Part shown: positions 12,727-20,175 of the stretch, one piece after another
Layout of the letters: every line of letters starts with the position of its first letter
Position numbering within the stretch: the first letter of the stretch is position 1
DNA from: Nitrospinota bacterium
GTDB taxonomy: Bacteria > Nitrospinota > Nitrospinia > JACRGO01
Length of the DNA: 20,175 nucleotides
Direction: 5' to 3'
NCBI GenBank assembly: GCA_016212295.1
Contig: JACRGO010000216.1
Location: forward strand, 1 to 20,175
The notes under the pieces: generated by a model
The model's database searches: none
What the model was told of the DNA's origin: nothing
Seen by the model: only the letters and a program-made list of their open reading frames with translations
Made by a program: the position numbers and the translations under genes

Positions 12727-12753
12727 GGGGCCGGCTCGAATTGAGCCAACCCC
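12727..12753 (-). terminator. Rho-independent terminator behind the tRNA-Ala fragment
   Basis: An 11-bp stem, GGGGCCGGCTC (12727-12737) with GAGCCAACCCC (12743-12753; two G-U pairs on the minus-strand RNA), and a 5-nt loop. On the minus strand a run of T follows. It would have ended the original tRNA-Ala transcript. Confidence 0.85.
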
Positions 12754-12763
12754 TTGATTTTAT

Positions 12764-12808
12764 TGGTGGAGCTGGGCGGGATCGAACCGCCGGCCTCTTG
12801 AATGCCAT
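12764..12808 (-). other. 3' part of tRNA-Ala (anticodon GGC): probable att site of an integrated element
   Basis: Read on the minus strand, the 45 nt give the anticodon loop ATGGCAT, the 3' anticodon stem strand TCAAG, a variable loop, the T arm GGCGG-TTCGATC-CCGCC, the 3' acceptor strand CAGCTCC, discriminator A and CCA. The T at acceptor position 70 suits the G3-U70 pair that marks tRNA-Ala. The 5' stem partner CTTGA and everything before it are absent; instead GCATGGCATGGG follows. Tyrosine integrases use just this segment, anticodon loop to 3' end, as their att core, and leave such a displaced 3' copy at one end. The loop and the first foreign bases form a 16-bp palindrome (12802-12817). 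Confidence 0.85.
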
Positions 12809-13009
12809 GCATGGCATGGGACTACAAGGAGCACATGTAAATAATTGATTAATAAGGGGTTTTTGGCTTGATACCGGTTGTCCCAAACCGTTAAAAACCG
12901 CCGTTTTTGCCGTTCTAATGACACAAAATCCCCACAATCAAATATTTAGTTTTTTTTGAAATTTCATCTTACATAATTCAATTAGGCAAAGCAATATCTT
13001 ATTTTTATA
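12809..13009. other. Junction-proximal non-coding stretch
   Basis: Two hundred bases between the att fragment and the first element gene. The stretch 12880-12915 has short repeated pieces (AAACCGTTAAAAACC, then CCGTTTTTG), which could be integrase or excisionase arm sites but are too short to claim. No gene or promoter is evident. Confidence 0.3.
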
Positions 13010-13633
13010 TTATTTAACATGCTCCAGAAAAAGAGCCATCGGCAACGTTTTTATGTATTTTTCATGCCCCGCATATGCTAATAAAAAACGATATACAGCA
13101 TCATTCCCATGACCAGTTGGAGCAATTTTACAACTCAGTTTCCCCTTTGTTGTAAACGGTAGCATTTTTTTTTGACCAGGTTTATCATTACCTTTTAGTT
13201 TGATTATCTTTTCTATTGCCGTTGCCATCTTTTCCCGCGCCACCCTAATTTCGTTTATAAGGTTATCAATTTCTAATTGATTTGAAAGCGTTTCATTTTG
13301 AACTGCCTCCCAAACCTTTTTTAAGGCGTTTTTCATATAACGGAGTTCAAATCCATTTTGACCAGACACCAGTTCTCTTTGATCTAAAAAATGGATAAGT
13401 TCAATCTCTAAATTTGTTATATATTCCTCAATTTTGGCCCAGGGTGTTTGATCAGTGCCATAAAAATAATTAATTGATGAACATATTTCCGACCATCTGA
13501 AGGGGTGATCGGTATAAATAAAAGACCCAGTAGCTTGGGCTAAAAACATACTTATTTCTAGATTAGGGCTTAACTGCGGTACCATCATTTGCCCCCCGTT
13601 TTTACCAGCAGACAACGGCTGAAGAGTAGCCAA
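13010..13633 (-). CDS. Downstream segment of the interrupted DUF4238/SEC-C gene
   Basis: A 207-residue frame of unknown function. It is in the same frame as the gene ending at 13643: after that TAA the codons read ADPLATLQPLSAGKNGGQ without a break, so the two look like one gene of about 820 codons cut by a single stop. The sequence NGGQMMVPQLSPNLEISMFLAQATGSFIYTDHPFRW reads as conserved protein rather than a new N-terminus. The middle (about residues 60-150) is helical and charged and could form a coiled coil. If translated alone, the ATG at 13588 behind a GGGGGG tract is the likelier start; the listed TTG has no ribosome binding site. Confidence 0.6.
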   Translation of the reverse strand: MATLQPLSAGKNGGQMMVPQLSPNLEISMFLAQATGSFIYTDHPFRWSEICSSINYFYGTDQTPWAKIEEYITNLEIELIHFLDQRELVSGQNGFELRYMKNALKKVWEAVQNETLSNQLEIDNLINEIRVAREKMATAIEKIIKLKGNDKPGQKKMLPFTTKGKLSCKIAPTGHGNDAVYRFLLAYAGHEKYIKTLPMALFLEHVK

Positions 13634-13642
13634 TGGGTCAGC

Positions 13643-15481
13643 TTAGTTTTTCTTTTTTACACATTCGAGAAGATTTTTCAGGTCTTTATCAGAAATACCA
13701 GGTCTTACATGCTTGATACAAGCTTCTAAATTTTCAGTTGGCAGGCTTAAAATAAAACGTTCAAAGTCTTCTTTGACCAAAGTCTCCATCGCTTCTTTTG
13801 ACTTTTCATCCAATTCTACTTTTCCGAGACGTTTCTCTGCCTCTTCCATAACTTGCCTTCGTAATACAGGATTGAAAATACATGGGTCTGGAATTAAATT
13901 TACCTGTCCACTTTCAATTAAAGGCATCAGCTCAATTAAAAAAGTTAAATTTTTAATCGTTTCTTGCCTATATTGCCCTGGGTTATCTATTGGGCTATAG
14001 TCTTTATTCATAATATTTGCATTCAAAAAGGGGCTTTGTATTAATATTTCATCGGCAAAGAGAGAAAATGAAACCACATTCTTATATATAACTCGGGGGT
14101 CTAAAATGCCTATATATAAAGCCCGTACAACTTTTGAATCTGGTCTTGGCAATAAGGACATCAAATCCGTTTCACTTGGCCAAAGCATTGCAACCGCTCT
14201 ATGAATATCGGCAATTTTTTCGTCTGTAAGATTTCGACGGATATTATTCCAATCACTATCTTCATTGATGTTTAGAATTTTCGTAATAATGTGAAAAAAA
14301 CGTAAGTTTCTTTCGCGAATGCTTAACACAGAGCTGGAGGGTTTTTCATCTTCCGCTTTATCGCGACAACACTTTTTATATTTTTTCCCGCTACCACAAA
14401 CACAAGGCTCATTAGCACCAACCTTACCTTTCCTTGGTGCTTTGTTTAAATAATCAGCTTCTTTCTCCGTTCTACCATATTGATCATGGTAAGAAGATGT
14501 GCCGTCTTTGTATCCTACATATATTTCTCCGCCATAGTGATGTAGCTCATCTATGGGTGGCAATAGTGATTTACCAAGATCAGTCCATGATAAATTTATG
14601 TTTTTTTCAGGATAGAGCCACTCTTTTTTCTCTGCGGCAATAAAACGTTTAGCGCGAAACTTTATAATTTGATTAATCATTACGACTTCTTCGTCGCTAA
14701 GTTTTCTTTTGCAAATAGTGTTATCAATTCGAACCAAAGGTTGCCGAAAAGGATTCGCGTTAATTCTATAGGCTTTAGGGTCTGGTAATTTAGGATTACG
14801 TGCATAATCAAGGTTTGTAAGAATCAAACACCGATTACTATCAAGAGGATAAATTGTTTGAGTTGCTTTCATTTCAATTTTAGGATCGTTAGGGTATTCG
14901 CACTCACGAGAGTTTAGGGGGCAGGCAGAATTGTAAATAGTAACGGGGTGGTCAGATACTATAAATTTAAATTCAGAATTATCAGCATACACAATTTCCT
15001 TTACGGATTCGGTCCACAGCGTACAATGAATTAGTCTTATATTTTGCATCTCTTGTAGCAATCCATTGTGGGTTAGTTTGGGAAATTTTGATCTAATCCA
15101 ATCTAATCCCTTTGGTGTACGGATTTTTTGAATATCCATATATTCAAAAAAGTTTGAAAAATTAGCATGCAATTCACTAAATTCCTGATCCACCATAGCC
15201 TTTACTGCCTTTGAGCCAGCGTTGTCAATTGTTCCAAAGAGGTATCGCTCGATTTCATCATTGAGGAAGTCGTAATAAAAAGTCGTGTAAAGATCAGTCT
15301 GATAAAAACATTGAGAGGGACTAAAAGGCCACTGAACACTTTTCTTTGGAATCTTTCTTCCGTTAGATAATTCTATTTCTTCTGGTGAAAGATCTAAATA
15401 ATAAAAAGAACTCTGCTTGGTGGACAGAAATCTTTTTTGATACCATCGTGGAACGTAATGATTATTTCTTATGATATCCAT
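13643..15481 (-). CDS. DUF4238 protein with SEC-C metal-binding motif
   Basis: A 612-residue protein. Residues about 5-290 are a DUF4238 domain, shown by NHYVPRWYQKRF at 7-18 and IVSDHPVTIYN at 174-184. This family is common in mobile and defence-rich regions, and its biochemical role is not established. Residues 357-372 are a SEC-C zinc-binding motif (EPCVCGSGKKYKKCC; Cys360, 362, 371, 372), as at the C-terminus of SecA. Residues 385-612 are helical and unidentified. The ATG gives the standard DUF4238 N-terminus; no Shine-Dalgarno sequence precedes it. Translation ends at a TAA beyond which the same frame stays open for another 210 codons. As the gene next to the att site it is the prime cargo candidate. 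Confidence 0.85.
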   Translation of the reverse strand: MDIIRNNHYVPRWYQKRFLSTKQSSFYYLDLSPEEIELSNGRKIPKKSVQWPFSPSQCFYQTDLYTTFYYDFLNDEIERYLFGTIDNAGSKAVKAMVDQEFSELHANFSNFFEYMDIQKIRTPKGLDWIRSKFPKLTHNGLLQEMQNIRLIHCTLWTESVKEIVYADNSEFKFIVSDHPVTIYNSACPLNSRECEYPNDPKIEMKATQTIYPLDSNRCLILTNLDYARNPKLPDPKAYRINANPFRQPLVRIDNTICKRKLSDEEVVMINQIIKFRAKRFIAAEKKEWLYPEKNINLSWTDLGKSLLPPIDELHHYGGEIYVGYKDGTSSYHDQYGRTEKEADYLNKAPRKGKVGANEPCVCGSGKKYKKCCRDKAEDEKPSSSVLSIRERNLRFFHIITKILNINEDSDWNNIRRNLTDEKIADIHRAVAMLWPSETDLMSLLPRPDSKVVRALYIGILDPRVIYKNVVSFSLFADEILIQSPFLNANIMNKDYSPIDNPGQYRQETIKNLTFLIELMPLIESGQVNLIPDPCIFNPVLRRQVMEEAEKRLGKVELDEKSKEAMETLVKEDFERFILSLPTENLEACIKHVRPGISDKDLKNLLECVKKKN

Positions 15482-15507
15482 AAAAACGATAAATGAGATC
15501 GGTTATT

Positions 15508-15533
15508 ATTATAGGGTGTTGTTATCAAACAAC
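15508..15533 (-). promoter_or_regulatory. -10 box and palindromic operator before the DUF4238 gene
   Basis: On the minus strand a perfect TATAAT (15508-15513) lies 26 bp before the ATG. Four bases upstream of it the palindrome GTTGTT-ATCA-AACAAC (15518-15533) occupies the spacer, and no good -35 box is visible. This is a typical place for a repressor or activator site. Confidence 0.5.
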
Positions 15534-15614
15534 ATTTTACTATGTTTAAGCCTGCTCAATCATTACTAAGGCTGTGGCTTTACAAGATCAACATTCTAAA
15601 ACCTCAAAAATAGG

Positions 15615-15697
15615 GGAGCCTGGGGCGACGGCAGGAGCCAATGAACTTCCTGGGGAGTGAATTTAAGAAGGGTGGAAACCCTTCTTAACCAGGCTCC
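15615..15697. ncRNA. Candidate structured RNA: two hairpins enclosed in a 9-bp stem
   Basis: GGAGCCTGG (15615-15623) pairs with CCAGGCTCC (15689-15697). Inside lie the hairpin CAGGA/TCCTG (15632-15636 and 15648-15652) and a perfect 11-bp hairpin TTAAGAAGGGT-GGAA-ACCCTTCTTAA (15663-15688). Together they form a compact three-way junction with no coding capacity. On the minus strand a T-rich stretch (TATTTTTG) follows. The strand and function are unknown; it could equally be a DNA hairpin element. Confidence 0.45.
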
Positions 15698-15735
15698 TTG
15701 GAAAGCGCTTTGAATTTCCGCTCTTTTAAAGACAC

Positions 15736-15768
15736 AAAAAAAGGGGGCAGGCTGAAAAGCCCACCCCC
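15736..15768 (-). terminator. Terminator after the methyltransferase gene
   Basis: GGGGG (15743-15747) and CCCCC (15764-15768) enclose GGCT-GAAA-AGCC, with a 2-by-2 internal loop. On the minus strand seven T follow. It lies 12 bp past the restored stop codon of the methyltransferase (15780), which supports that end point. Confidence 0.8.
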
Positions 15769-15779
15769 TGAAATCTCCT

Positions 15780-16464
15780 CTATCGTAATCTGCTGATAGC
15801 GATATCGGCATAATTGCGATTGATTTCGATAGAGATATGCTGACGTCCTAATTTTTGGGCTGCGTCCGCAGTGCTACCTGAACCGGCAAAGGGGATCAAG
15901 GATAATGTCATCCTTCCTTGAGTAGGCCCTGATAAGGGGCAATAAGGCCACGAGAGGTTTTTGGGTGGGGTGAAGTTTATTGCCGGTATACTGCCATTCT
16001 AAAACACTTGGAGGAATAATCGGTGGTTGTTTAGGCCATCCCTTCCCCAAAAGATAAGCCGATTCATGATAACGCCCGGCAAAACCCTTGGATGACGGAT
16101 AATTCTTTTTCCAGACAAAATGTTCAAGCGGTTTAAAGCCCGCCGACTTCCACGCGAAGAGAAATTCATCCGCCCGCTGAAAGCCATAAAAACAGATCAA
16201 GAAACTGTTCTTTTTTAAAACACGATAAATTTCTGAAAAAGCGGGTTTGAGCCACCAGCCATTATTATCACCGGTGATGCTTCTGCCATCCCTTGATTTG
16301 TAATTTACAAGATAAGGCGGATCGGTTAAGACCATGTCAACACTTTCGCCGGGCATATTCCGCATTATTTTTAGGCAGTCGCCATAGATAATATGATTGA
16401 CGATGTCGTCAATTTTCAAAGTCTTTGCACTTTGTGGTTCGCATTGTTGGAATACATTGTTCAT
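15780..16464 (-). pseudogene. Beta-class DNA methyltransferase, frameshifted near the C-terminus
   Basis: A phage-type S-adenosylmethionine-dependent DNA methyltransferase (N6-adenine or N4-cytosine; target unknown). From the ATG at 16464: IIYGDCLKIM, the catalytic TDPPY at 47-51, GFQRADEFLFAWK, HPTQKP around 164-169, then DDIILDP. Motif IV thus precedes motif I, the beta arrangement. At 15888-15894 the sequence CCCCTTT has one extra base. Removing it restores FAGSGSTADAAQKLGRQHIS and a TAG at 15780-15782, giving 228 residues, the usual size; uncorrected, the frame ends CRFR at 15874. The loss removes the cofactor-binding FAGSG, so the protein as read is inactive. A sequencing error is possible. 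The frame upstream of 16464 runs into a hairpin and is not coding. Confidence 0.85.
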
Positions 16465-16492
16465 AGTAAAAAAAAGGTTAATGAAATAAAGA

Positions 16493-16519
16493 GGGGCAAG
16501 CCCCATTGAAGCCTGCCCC
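16493..16519 (-). terminator. Hairpin GGGGCA...TGCCCC between two element genes
   Basis: GGGGCA (16493-16498) pairs with TGCCCC (16514-16519), with GC/GC inside. On the minus strand it starts 5 bp after a stop codon, and its T-tract (TCTTTATTTC) is also the leader of the next gene, the methyltransferase. Confidence 0.65.
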
Positions 16520-16524
16520 TTTTT

Positions 16525-16845
16525 TTATTTTGTTTTTTCTAAAATACTTATTATTCTTTCTACTATCGCCTTATCTCTCCCTCCAATGTGCCAATTCATT
16601 ATTTCTTCGGTCTTCATTCCGTCTTTGCCTAAATAATTTTTCCCGTCTTTCCAGTTGTAAATAGTAGCTACTTTTCCATCTTCAAATTTTACCCACCATT
16701 CGGCGTCCGATTTGTAGCAAATAAAGTCGCTTTTTAATGGCTGGCCAAAGGCATCAACCAATTTTTGGAAGGAAGATATTATTTCTCCCTGAAAGCATGT
16801 TCCTGTGATTTTGATTTTTCTATTATTGTGAGTTGAGAATTTCAT
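16525..16845 (-). CDS. Small phage-associated protein of unknown function
   Basis: A 106-residue cytoplasmic protein. The stretch DAEWWVKFEDGKVATIYNWKDGKNY followed by TEEIMNWHIGG matches what I recall of a small protein family common in tailed phages and prophages, whose function is not known. It looks like one compact alpha/beta domain with no membrane segment. It is preceded by the shared leader (16857-16872, 11 nt before the ATG) instead of a Shine-Dalgarno sequence and followed by a GGGGCA/TGCCCC hairpin. Confidence 0.8.
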   Translation of the reverse strand: MKFSTHNNRKIKITGTCFQGEIISSFQKLVDAFGQPLKSDFICYKSDAEWWVKFEDGKVATIYNWKDGKNYLGKDGMKTEEIMNWHIGGRDKAIVERIISILEKTK

Positions 16846-16856
16846 GGTTAAAAATT

Positions 16857-16872
16857 GGTTAAGAAATAAAAA
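16857..16872 (-). promoter_or_regulatory. Shared leader motif, copy with consensus sequence
   Basis: On the minus strand this reads TTTTTATTTCTTAACC, 11 nt before the ATG at 16845. Near-identical copies precede the starts at 16464 (copy 16476-16491), 17161 (17174-17189), 18351 (18362-18378) and 19477 (19492-19509). An orphan copy lies at 17923-17939 just past the stop of the gene ending at 17941. No Shine-Dalgarno sequence occurs at these starts. Confidence 0.7.
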
Positions 16873-16900
16873 GGGGCAAGTCAGTTGCCGGACCTGCCCC
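16873..16900 (-). terminator. Hairpin GGGGCA...TGCCCC upstream of the small phage-type gene
   Basis: GGGGCA (16873-16878) pairs with TGCCCC (16895-16900), and GTC/GAC pairs inside. On the minus strand it is followed at once by CTTTTTATTTCTTAACC, so the T-tract and the leader of the next gene coincide. Confidence 0.7.
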
Positions 16901-16915
16901 CCAAGACCCTGACGG

Positions 16916-17161
16916 TCAATTTTTAGTTTCCGTTTTCTGAGCGTAATAGGAAAACTTACTCAGCTTATCGCCTTTCAGCAAAACTTTATTACCCTTTCCA
17001 TTTTCCAGATAAACCAACTTGGTGGCAGGGTCAAAAACGGCTTTTACATCAGCCTGAAAGTCCTTTTGAACTTCGGCGTATTTGTCCAAAAGCCGGGCGA
17101 TCATTTTTAGTTCGCGGAAGGCAAGCCCGGTCAGGTTCAAGGAAATGATTTTCTTGTTCAT
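16916..17161 (-). CDS. Small hypothetical protein
   Basis: An 81-residue lysine-rich soluble protein with no family I recognise. The first half is helical (AFRELKMIARLLDKYAEVQKDF), and the second half alternates like a beta hairpin (TKLVYLENGKGNKVLLKG). Gene order, the shared leader 12 nt before the ATG (17174-17189) and the hairpin after its stop show it is one of the element's gene units. It may be a phage accessory or nucleic-acid-binding protein, but only its basic character hints at that. Confidence 0.7.
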   Translation of the reverse strand: MNKKIISLNLTGLAFRELKMIARLLDKYAEVQKDFQADVKAVFDPATKLVYLENGKGNKVLLKGDKLSKFSYYAQKTETKN

Positions 17162-17188
17162 GATTAAAAAAGTGGTTAAGAAATAAAA

Positions 17189-17224
17189 ATCCCCGCCTAG
17201 AGGGTTAAAATCCAGGGTGGGGAT
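17189..17224 (-). terminator. Hairpin ATCCCC...GGGGAT upstream of the 81-residue gene
   Basis: ATCCCC (17189-17194) pairs with GGGGAT (17219-17224), with weaker CC/GG pairing inside. On the minus strand it runs straight into TTTTTATTTCTTAACC. This is the same hairpin-leader layout as at 16873-16900. Confidence 0.6.
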
Positions 17225-17254
17225 AAGGTATATGTAAAAAGGTATATCTGGAAA

Positions 17255-17457
17255 CGCTTAAGAAGTTCCAGGCTAGACCCTGGGCGATTTAAGCGACTAT
17301 CGGCCTCTTAATTTTTTGGCTGGTTTTTTTGAAGTTTGCAAAAACGCCAAGGAGTCAAGGTGGAGCCCCGCCTTGGCGGGGACTACCTTGACGCCCTCCG
17401 CAAGGACAATGCTGAACCATGCCACACCGCGATAATGAAAAAGGCCGGTCGCTTAAA
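17255..17457. repeat. Structured block 1: nested inverted repeats with alternative pairings
   Basis: TTTAAGCGAC plus CGGCCT (17288-17306, with a TAT bulge) pairs with AGGCCG plus GTCGCTTAAA (17442-17457), a 16-bp stem. It encloses a hairpin GTCAAGG...CCCCGCC-TT-GGCGGGG...CCTTGAC (17354-17392) and a smaller TTGGC/GCCAA pair. The same TTAAGCG (17289-17295) can instead pair with CGCTTAA at 17255-17261, closing a hairpin with CCAGG/CCTGG. The two forms exclude each other. No coding capacity is seen. Confidence 0.6.
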
Positions 17458-17518
17458 TGCCCTATCCGAAGGGGAAAACAGTTTTCAAAAAAACAAAAAA
17501 CAAAAACAAAATAAAAAA

Positions 17519-17760
17519 GGCGTCCGGGGGGTGTTGGGGGACCTCCCCCGACCCTGCCTGCTTAGATGTGTCTGTTAGTCGGCATTCGTTCAGAAGGCAG
17601 AATAACAGTTAACACCATCAAGCAGGCAGGGTCGGGGGAGATTTTTCCTATTTGCGCAAGAGCTATTTCCGCTTTCTCTTCCCCAATTGCAAGAAAGGGA
17701 GAAAGCTGTAAATAGCCGTAAGCATTAGGAAAATCTGCCCCCGACACCCCCCAGGACGCC
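17519..17760. repeat. Structured block 2: 242-bp three-way inverted repeat, MITE-like or ncRNA
   Basis: The outer arms 17519-17540 and 17738-17760 form a 22-bp stem (GGCGTCC with GGACGCC, then a G-run with a C-run, one bulge). Arm A is a perfect 21-bp stem, 17543-17563 with 17620-17640; its loop pairs again through GATG/CATC and CTGTTA/TAACAG. Arm B pairs ATTTTTCCTA with TAGGAAAAT, GCTATTT with AAATAGC and GCTTTCTC with GAGAAAGC. Almost every base is paired. A-rich stretches of similar sequence flank both sides. On the minus strand a long T-rich run follows. Confidence 0.75.
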
Positions 17761-17794
17761 ACAAAAAAATAAAAAAGAAAAAAAAGAAAAAGAG

Positions 17795-17848
17795 TATAAG
17801 ACTGGATTTTGTAGTCATCTTATACCCTATCTTATAGGCAATCTTATA
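17795..17848. repeat. Iteron-like array: three ATCTTATA repeats at 12-bp spacing plus an inverted copy
   Basis: ATCTTATA occurs at 17817-17824, 17829-17836 and 17841-17848, each followed by a different 4-bp spacer, so the period is exactly 12 bp. TATAAGAC at 17795-17802 is an inverted copy with one change. The array lies between structured block 2 and the S74-like gene. It may bind a replication or regulatory protein. Confidence 0.65.
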
Positions 17849-17940
17849 GGGAGAGACAAAAGGAGAGAGGATAGAACGAAGGGCGTTGGTTAATTATACC
17901 GGGGATTAGGTCGTTTTAAAAAGGTTAGGAAATAAAAAAT

Positions 17941-18351
17941 TTACTGCTTCTCCAAGGCTTGTATTCTCTCCTCTATGTTTTTCAAGCCGCCTTGCTGTTC
18001 CTTGATGGCTTCCACAACCACCGGAAACAGCCCGTCATAATCAACGGACTTTATCCCGTCTTTGTTCTCACTCACCAGCTCCGGCAAAACCGCCTCTACC
18101 TCCTGGGCAATGACCCCCATTTGTTTTCCCTCACCCCTGGCTTTGTCCTTCCAATAGTAATTGACCCCGTTCAAATTCAGGAGCTTGGCCAAGGCGTGCT
18201 CAATCGGGCTAATTTTAATTTCCACTTCTCCGGCCAAGACTTTTTCCCGGGCTAAATGGAAAAAAGAAATAAAAGTAAGACTGGCGGCGAAAAGGAGAAA
18301 TGACCATAAGATTTTCTTCCGCAAGCCGGAAAAGACTTTTTTGAGTTTCAT
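17941..18351 (-). CDS. Membrane-anchored, truncated S74-type (intramolecular chaperone) protein
   Basis: A 136-residue protein. Residues about 14-30 form a membrane helix after a basic N-terminus. Residues about 48-120 match the S74 chaperone domain: ISPIEHALAKLLNLNGVNYYWKDK, MGVIAQEVEAVLPELV and YDGLFPVVVEAIKEQQ. The end is a short coiled coil. The Ser-Asp self-cleavage site that opens the domain (SDSRLKKD in its neighbour) is missing, so it cannot cleave in the known way and has no fibre portion. It is a clear paralogue of the gene 67 bp upstream. The leader variant 18362-18378 precedes the ATG by 10 nt. Confidence 0.8.
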   Translation of the reverse strand: MKLKKVFSGLRKKILWSFLLFAASLTFISFFHLAREKVLAGEVEIKISPIEHALAKLLNLNGVNYYWKDKARGEGKQMGVIAQEVEAVLPELVSENKDGIKSVDYDGLFPVVVEAIKEQQGGLKNIEERIQALEKQ

Positions 18352-18418
18352 TGGGAGTTTTGATTAAGAAATATAAAAGGCGGGCAAATCTTTGAGGTTT
18401 GGAAAAATAAAAAGCGGA

Positions 18419-19477
18419 CTATCCTTGCTCTTCCAAATTCAGCACTTGTTCCCGAAGCTCCCTGATGGAAGCTCCTTGCTCCGTAATGGTCTTTTGCTGT
18501 TCCTTGATCGCTTCAATCAGCGCCCCGACCAAGTTGGCATAGGCGACCGATTTCATCCCTTCTTTGTCGGTCTTCACCAGTTCGGGGAAAACTTTTTCCA
18601 CCTCCTGGGCAATCACGCCCATTTGCAAACCCTGATCTTGGTTTTTGTCTTTCCAGTAAAAATTAACCCCGTTGAGTTGCAAGACTTTGGCGAGAGCGTT
18701 CTGGATGGGGCGAAGGTCTTTTTTGAGGCGGGAGTCGGAGGTTTGGGTAATTGTCGGGGCGGTGATAGTGCCTTTGGCGGTGATATTTCCACCTCCACCA
18801 CCAGCATCAAGACCCACATTTACATCTCCACTCACATTCACCTTCCAATCACTATTATTTATCTCAAGTGTCTTGCCATTACTATACTCAGAAACTCCTA
18901 AGCTATTTTTACTGGCGTTATCCGCAAAAATTACTTTATCAGTAGCGATTTTTAAGACACCGTGATCGCCCGCTGTGGTCTTTGGAATTCTTTTGTACAC
19001 AATACGAGCGCCATAATCAAAACCGCTAACGGCGTTAGTAAAATCCATAATTACAGGGGCATCTTTATTGGTTGTTTTAAGCTCAAGAGTTGCCTGATTT
19101 GCACTTGTTAGATTGAGAGCAACATTTTTCGCACCTGTTAAATTAAGAGCAACATCATTTGGATTTGTCGCGCTTAACCGCTCATTGTTTGAGTTAATGT
19201 TAACATTACCTATATGGTAAGTATTATCAATTCTTCCCATGGTTTTTGCTAACTCCGGTTTCGTCACCCACACGCTCGCCACATTCCCCAGTTCCGGGGT
19301 GGTCTGCGGGGGTTCGCCGGGGGACCAGTAGGTGTTGGTGGTGGAAACATTACTACCAACAAAAGCGGCAGAGACTATAAAATAAGCACTAAGCAAAAAA
19401 GCGATGGTCAGAAGCGAGGCAATAACAGCCTTAGACCATTCCCTGAAAAGAGCGTGGATTTTTTGGAGAGCTTTCAT
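18419..19477 (-). CDS. Membrane-anchored surface or fibre protein with S74 self-cleaving chaperone domain
   Basis: A 352-residue protein. A basic N-terminus and membrane helix (residues about 17-40) are followed by an Asn/Thr-rich beta region with internal repeats (DVALNLTGAKNVALNLTSA), a glycine turn (GGGGG) and the S74 domain from residue 247: SDSRLKKDLRPI, NGVNFYWKDK, MGVIAQEVEKVFPELV, IEAIKEQQ and a coiled-coil end. In phage tail spikes this domain trimerises the fibre and then cuts itself off before the Ser-Asp. The frame extends to 19579, but the ATG at 19477, 14 nt behind a copy of the shared leader (19492-19509), is the likely start. The membrane helix suggests a cell-surface rather than a virion protein. 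Confidence 0.85.
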   Translation of the reverse strand: MKALQKIHALFREWSKAVIASLLTIAFLLSAYFIVSAAFVGSNVSTTNTYWSPGEPPQTTPELGNVASVWVTKPELAKTMGRIDNTYHIGNVNINSNNERLSATNPNDVALNLTGAKNVALNLTSANQATLELKTTNKDAPVIMDFTNAVSGFDYGARIVYKRIPKTTAGDHGVLKIATDKVIFADNASKNSLGVSEYSNGKTLEINNSDWKVNVSGDVNVGLDAGGGGGNITAKGTITAPTITQTSDSRLKKDLRPIQNALAKVLQLNGVNFYWKDKNQDQGLQMGVIAQEVEKVFPELVKTDKEGMKSVAYANLVGALIEAIKEQQKTITEQGASIRELREQVLNLEEQG

Positions 19478-19621
19478 TTTATTTGGATTTTTGTTAAGAA
19501 ATAAAAAAAGATTAATTAATTTTTTAGCGAAAAAAACCATAGCCAAATTTCCCCCCAAAAAGGCGGAGAAGCTGACCATGGAGAAAAGAAACAGCGGTCA
19601 ACTGTTTGCTTAAAGAGGTCT

Positions 19622-19732
19622 TTAGTTCGCCCCCCCCCCCCCCTTAGCTTTGGAGGTTTGGCGCTTTCCCTTCACCTTTGGCTCTTTGGGGAATTTACAA
19701 AGCTTTTCGTTGTTGATTTTTTCTTCGGACAT
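19622..19732 (-). CDS. Mini-ORF containing a run of 14 G (14 C on the plus strand)
   Basis: From the ATG at 19732 the frame gives MSEEKINNEKLCKFPKEPKV, KGKRQTSKAK, then Gly4-Ala-Asn and a stop: 36 residues, very basic. The 14-base tract is at 19630-19643. With one more G the frame would instead stay open for about 35 further codons (ELKTSLSKQLTAVSF and on), and with one fewer it would read through RTKDLFKQTVDRCFF. The N-terminal part looks coding, but no family is known and no good ribosome binding site is seen. The tract could be a phase-variation switch or a sequencing artefact. Confidence 0.4.
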   Translation of the reverse strand: MSEEKINNEKLCKFPKEPKVKGKRQTSKAKGGGGAN

Positions 19733-19783
19733 ACAGGGAGGGAAAGAGGACTTAAACGCCGCTATTTTACACCCTCTTTTGTA

Positions 19784-19829
19784 AAAAGTCTAGCCAAAAA
19801 CCGTGATTTTTTCCACCTTTTAGACTTTT
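19784..19829 (-). terminator. Inverted repeat at the end of the last gene
   Basis: AAAAGTCTA (19784-19792) and TAGACTTTT (19821-19829) are perfect complements around a 28-nt loop. The arm overlaps the TAA of the gene at 19828-20055, and its other end runs into T on the minus strand, so a weak terminator is plausible. Confidence 0.5.
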
Positions 19830-20055
19830 ACTGAGCGGGAAGATCCTGCGCGCAACGGCCACCAATATCGGGGCTTCCATAGCCCATTTCTATGCCACCT
19901 TTAGCGGCTGGTCGTAAACGATAGGTTGGGCTGGCGTTGTCTACAGGGTCCACCTCGGCACGGAGAGGATTAAAAGCCCCTCCTTTAAGCACTGCTCCCG
20001 GTCCACTTTTTGGGGGGATATGCCCTTGTTTGGTTTTACTATAGAGCCTACGCAT
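19828..20055 (-). CDS. Small protein resembling the C-terminus of FGE-like or FISUMP-like domains
   Basis: A 75-residue basic protein. GAVLKGGAFNPL near residues 20-31 and SPDIGGRCAQD near the end recall the closing motifs (R-G-G-S-W/F ... G-F-R-C) of formylglycine-generating-enzyme-like and related surface-protein domains. The long N-terminal part of such a domain is absent, so it is either a fragment or an unrelated short protein. The ATG at 20055 follows a T-rich, Shine-Dalgarno-less leader. A hairpin overlaps its stop. The remaining 120 bp to the window edge hold no gene I can support. Confidence 0.45.
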   Translation of the reverse strand: MRRLYSKTKQGHIPPKSGPGAVLKGGAFNPLRAEVDPVDNASPTYRLRPAAKGGIEMGYGSPDIGGRCAQDLPAQ

Positions 20056-20175
20056 AAATTAAAAAACAACAAATCAATTTTAAAAAACCCAACAAAATCA
20101 ATGAGTTAGGATTTTAGGGTCTATGGGTAAATTGAAAACCAGTAAATATAAACTTGTCAATTTTGAAGCAGTCCC

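Follow-up and report, generated by a model that had tools for sequence, protein, structure and literature searches.

A 242-nt element at positions 17519 to 17760 is a real structure, is unique in all the collections searched, does not encode a protein and lies in foreign, phage-like DNA. The window analyzed here, 20,175 nt in length, is one whole contig of a Nitrospinota bacterium and ends at position 20175. The element, referred to below as E2, is probably terminator-like; we place the probability that it serves as an oversized intrinsic terminator, or transcript 3'-end barrier, for the minus-strand S74 gene upstream of it (17941 to 18351) at roughly 0.4. This reading is outside the three options that a preliminary description of the sequence had offered, namely a non-autonomous inverted-repeat transposon (MITE), an origin and a structured RNA. 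A mobile element or an RNA gene is less likely. The significance of E2 is modest, and consists in the fact that the strongest fold sampled in the host genome is a one-off in foreign phage-like DNA and not a multi-copy palindrome.

Fold, uniqueness and rank of the element

Recomputing the fold bore out both the structure and the coordinates given for it in the preliminary description. E2 is a three-way folded element, assigned to the minus strand as the strand of its putative terminator action; its component stems are given without strand. The outer stem is formed by 17519 to 17540, of which the inner 15 nt correspond to inverted repeat I7, and 17738 to 17760, and on the plus strand comprises 22 pairs, one of them a U.G wobble; a single A is bulged out in the second half. 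Arm A (17543 to 17640) is closed by a 21-bp stem (17543 to 17563 with 17620 to 17640) that is 100% complementary, with a 56-nt spacer whose interior is partly paired. Arm B (approximately 17640 to 17735) is an imperfect multi-stem hairpin. The ends of the element read GGCGTCC/GGACGCC and its G+C content is 0.54.

The minimum free energy of the plus strand is -148.8 kcal/mol, compared to -77.8 ± 4.6 kcal/mol for dinucleotide shuffles (z of -15.5, with 0 of 200 shuffles as good), and that of the minus strand is -145.5 kcal/mol (z of -13.8). Most of this surprise resides in arm A, which reached z values of -11.5 and -14.0 when folded alone; the value for arm B alone was about -4. The fold contains 94 to 99 pairs in total. 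The element had been described as almost fully paired, and the pairing is indeed extensive, but the wording is slightly generous since 54 of the 242 bases on the plus strand and 44 on the minus strand, about a fifth, are unpaired. The G.U pairs did not tell the strands apart and favored neither. The statement that E2 contains no gene held up: the longest overlapping ORF is 80 aa with a TTG start, and no credible gene is present.

Relatives of E2 were sought widely. The element is single copy in its own genome, where nothing beyond its own inverted copy was found, and further copies were absent from 76 other Nitrospinota genomes, from 379 genomes of the Patescibacteria (the phylum of a Kaiserbacteria record) and from 384 genomes of the phylum Omnitrophota. 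No match was obtained in phage records or in plasmid records. Using Rfam at the gathering score, E2 was unmatched and the window yielded only two tRNAs, while a lax search of E2 returned only hits well under their cut-offs, such as eukaryotic miRNA hairpins. A known repeat or RNA family to which E2 could belong was thus looked for and none was found. In addition, 75 genome loci with S74 relatives had no E2-like DNA nearby.

Several weaker matches were considered and set aside. Matches of 23 to 50 nt in the Patescibacteria and Omnitrophota genomes were taken as chance; one lies within a dnaN-coding stretch, several share one purine-rich stretch of E2, and the four loci inspected from the Patescibacteria search had no comparable fold. 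A 16-mer of arm A was present in six viral contigs, in which the second arm is absent.

The rank of E2 within its own genome was assessed by a palindrome census over stretches totaling approximately 0.84 Mb, sampled from the 3.7-Mb host genome, counting arms that match perfectly over 18 bp or more and are separated by no more than 260 nt. Long palindromes proved to be common in this sample (37 separate places), and 36 of the 37 had related sequence elsewhere in it, at 2 to 46 places each; E2 was the sole singleton. Like E2, the other long palindromes (CACACCCCGGCCTTCGGCC..., CCCCCTTTG..., AAGTGACTAAAGTT...) have long perfect arms and some are nested, but they are multi-copy and share no sequence with it. 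Palindromes nested within palindromes were seen at L025:1270-1515, L043:13084-13300 and L024:8780-9100, which belong to multi-copy families of the host genome. By fold energy corrected for G+C content, E2 is the strongest segment in two scans of the approximately 0.84 Mb sampled from the host genome (-7.5 and -7.7 SD). A long palindrome as such is therefore ordinary in this genome, while E2 stands outside its repeat families and has the most extreme fold. In the first scan a single segment ranked above E2, and it came from a different genome of the same class, G052. That segment (L027:3300-3606) is a near-perfect palindrome of approximately 300 nt between S74 genes.

The phage-like island

E2 is located in a compositionally foreign, phage-like island of approximately 7 kb (12950 to 20000, without strand), the right end of which is uncertain. 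The tetranucleotide correlation between island and host is 0.41, whereas 54 equally sized host pieces gave 0.73 ± 0.06 and never fell below 0.59, and the G+C content of the island is 0.36 to 0.45 as against 0.49 in the host. The island edge (12844 to 12941) recurs on other contigs beside unrelated genes, and part of it matches the end of a gene that, read by eye, putatively encodes a tyrosine integrase. Genes in the island include those for a DUF4238/SEC-C protein with relatives on plasmids, a DNA methyltransferase that covers 188 of 221 profile positions and lacks the domain end, a 106-aa protein for which viral contigs contain 91 relatives, and a pair of S74 proteins of the tail-fibre type. 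In a relative of the same genus, the syntenic FHA gene (66% identical) borders other DNA on the island side; the island is therefore absent there, which is uninformative for E2 alone. In our best explanation, the island was acquired horizontally.

Other features were observed at the island borders and ahead of its genes. Both 12844 to 12941 and 20040 to 20066 recur on contigs of the same genome (C193, C30, C152 and C200), as if there were several islands of one kind sharing their ends. Although neither ARAGORN nor Rfam finds a tRNA at 12740 to 12830, this segment reads by eye as the minus-strand 3' part of a tRNA-Ala gene and may be the island's attachment-site fragment. A leader repeat, TTTTTATTTCTTAACC on the minus strand, was found at 16470 to 16492, 16850 to 16872, 17167 to 17189, 17916 to 17938, 18355 to 18377 and 19492 to 19505. 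Five of the minus-strand island genes carry it immediately ahead of their start codons; the remaining copy follows straight on the stop codon of the gene at 17941 and has no ORF behind it. Contig C142 holds a sixth gene with this leader, downstream of a good sigma-70-like promoter. The 104 exact matches to the repeat in viral contigs were judged to be chance.

Proposed termination of the upstream transcript

E2 sits in a 780-nt non-coding gap between two minus-strand genes. Upstream on that strand is the S74 intramolecular-chaperone gene of tail-fibre type (17941 to 18351) and downstream is a gene for an 81-aa protein (16916 to 17161), for which relatives were sought and none found. On the minus strand the outer stem passes straight into UUUUUUAUUUUG, and the junction reads ...GGACGCC followed directly by TTTTTTATTTTG. 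This T-tract (TTTTTTATTTTGTTTTTG) belongs to a flank at 17483 to 17518 that is A-rich on the plus strand. A second A-rich flank, to which no strand is assigned, occupies 17761 to 17793, and the plus strand has no T-tract after E2. Only on the minus strand, on which both flanking genes lie, does a T-tract adjoin the outer stem. This argues for a terminator, as does the location of E2, which follows a gene of matching orientation in a gap free of genes. The strength of the fold on this strand (z of -13.8) and the fact that E2 is neither a member of a repeat family nor a known RNA were also counted in favor. Among the terminator-like sites found between 15500 and 20175, the three with the longest stems likewise belong to the island's minus strand and combine GC-rich stems with T-tails and ordinary loops.

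If minus-strand transcription proceeds through E2, arm B would emerge from the polymerase and fold first, followed by arm A. Folding of the arms would bring one half of the GC-rich outer stem next to the other. The stem may then close once the polymerase has arrived at the UUUUUUAUUUUG tract, and the transcript so released would have a very stable end. E2 would then be transcribed, would stop transcription and would protect the transcript that ends in it. E2 resembles an intrinsic (Rho-independent) terminator in that, read on the strand of the upstream gene, its GC-rich stem leads directly into a T-tract, but the loop of E2 is approximately 200 nt, consists itself of two long hairpins and contains an excess of pairing. 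Ordinary terminators have small loops, and terminator function requires nothing like 94 to 99 pairs. A simple terminator scanner that allows loops of 3 to 8 nt did not report E2, which counts against the assignment, as does the observation that the plus strand folds as well as the minus strand. Because the small loop of the textbook terminator is missing, we keep the probability of this model where it stands above. Should it be correct, E2 would be a natural, very large multi-hairpin terminator and would test the limits to which a terminator loop can be stretched.

Other readings of the element

The best of the alternatives, though unlikely, is a structured non-coding RNA or long 5' leader on the minus strand, extending from 17920-17893 through E2 and a second structured segment, E1 (17283 to 17462, without strand). 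E1 is single copy, shares the gap with E2, is built on a long-range ATTTAAGCGAC..GTCGCTTAAAT stem and is significant by itself (z of -5.2 and -6.7); the fold of the whole gap (z of -12.6) and the extreme fold of E2 on both strands are also consistent with an RNA. A promoter-like site, TTTAAA-16-TATAAT (17893 to 17920, minus strand), identified by consensus match only, is the top-scoring minus-strand site in the scanned stretch, and transcription from it could run through E2 and E1. Such a transcript might work as an RNA itself or as the leader of the gene at 16916 to 17161. Against these proposals, no Rfam match above threshold was obtained, E2 has no homologue in the collections searched and hence no covariation, the G.U pairs favor neither strand, and the T-tract abutting the outer stem suggests the end of a transcript and not its body. 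If E2 nevertheless works as an RNA, a phage-like island would carry an orphan structured RNA; the full version of this proposal, an RNA of approximately 700 nt with E2 and E1 as two large domains and no relatives in family databases, appears quite improbable.

The MITE option had been raised together with the observation of similar A-rich flanks, suggested as possible target duplications. The flanks are indeed similar, with 14 of 15 bases matching, but 625 of 2000 flank shuffles were equal, which is the level of chance, and the bases abutting the stem differ. We consider a MITE unsupported on account of this chance-level similarity and the lack of a target duplication abutting the stem; E2 is also single copy genome-wide and absent from all relatives searched. 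A MITE is expected to have further copies and usually a target duplication, and small mobile repeats of this type typically have TA termini, are A+T-rich and are usually shorter than 200 bp, with named exceptions (PMC2229807). E2 shares with bacterial MITEs a terminal inverted repeat, the lack of coding sequence and an almost fully paired RNA, and its two-armed fold resembles the two-armed folds described for the CIR repeats of Caulobacter (PMC2229807). It differs in being single copy, 242 bp long and not A+T-rich, and in having neither a target duplication nor TA ends. REP/BIME repeats, which are short palindromes of high copy number, were ruled out by the single copy, and an integron attC site was rejected as no fully complementary RYYYAAC / GTTRRRY pair 40 to 180 nt apart is present in the window.

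It is distinctly unlikely that E2 is a solitary palindromic, MITE-like insertion that arrived with the island and whose relatives reside in an unsampled donor. The terminal inverted repeat, the absence of an ORF, the foreign nature of the island and the wealth of long, sometimes nested, multi-copy palindromes in the host genome are all compatible with such an arrival. These points are offset by the singleton status of E2 among the 37 long palindromes, by the empty searches of Nitrospinota, the two other phyla, phages and plasmids, and by flanks that show chance-level similarity and no target duplication at the stem.

Equally doubtful is a functionless quasi-palindrome that arose while the island was decaying, either by template switching or by the stacking of insertions. 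Partial decay is suggested by the methyltransferase without its domain end and by the island edge, which is a repeated remnant, and the searches yielded no relative that would point to conservation. However, several events would be needed because the outer stem, arm A and arm B differ in sequence, and arm A is still perfect across 21 bp. Least probable is a DNA-level site of a former phage or plasmid, such as a replication, single-strand or packaging origin, for which the large gene-free gap does offer palindromes and A-rich tracts, together with 2.8 copies of a 12-bp direct repeat (ATCTTATAGGCA, 17817 to 17850, adjoining an A-rich tract). Against it, this direct repeat departs only mildly from expectation (4 of 100 island shuffles were as good), and phages and plasmids gave no match. 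No replication initiator or relaxase was present among those island proteins that were scanned, but the contig stops within the island or close to it.

A structure of partly similar layout was seen in a phage contig, IMGVR_UViG_3300045540_000039, which carries a relative of the 106-aa island protein. Like E2, it has a long perfect stem in a gene-free gap (L328:5371-5486); it differs from E2 in having no sequence relation to it, in forming one hairpin and in containing T/A-rich tracts in the loop. This hairpin lies just upstream of a sigma-factor-like gene.
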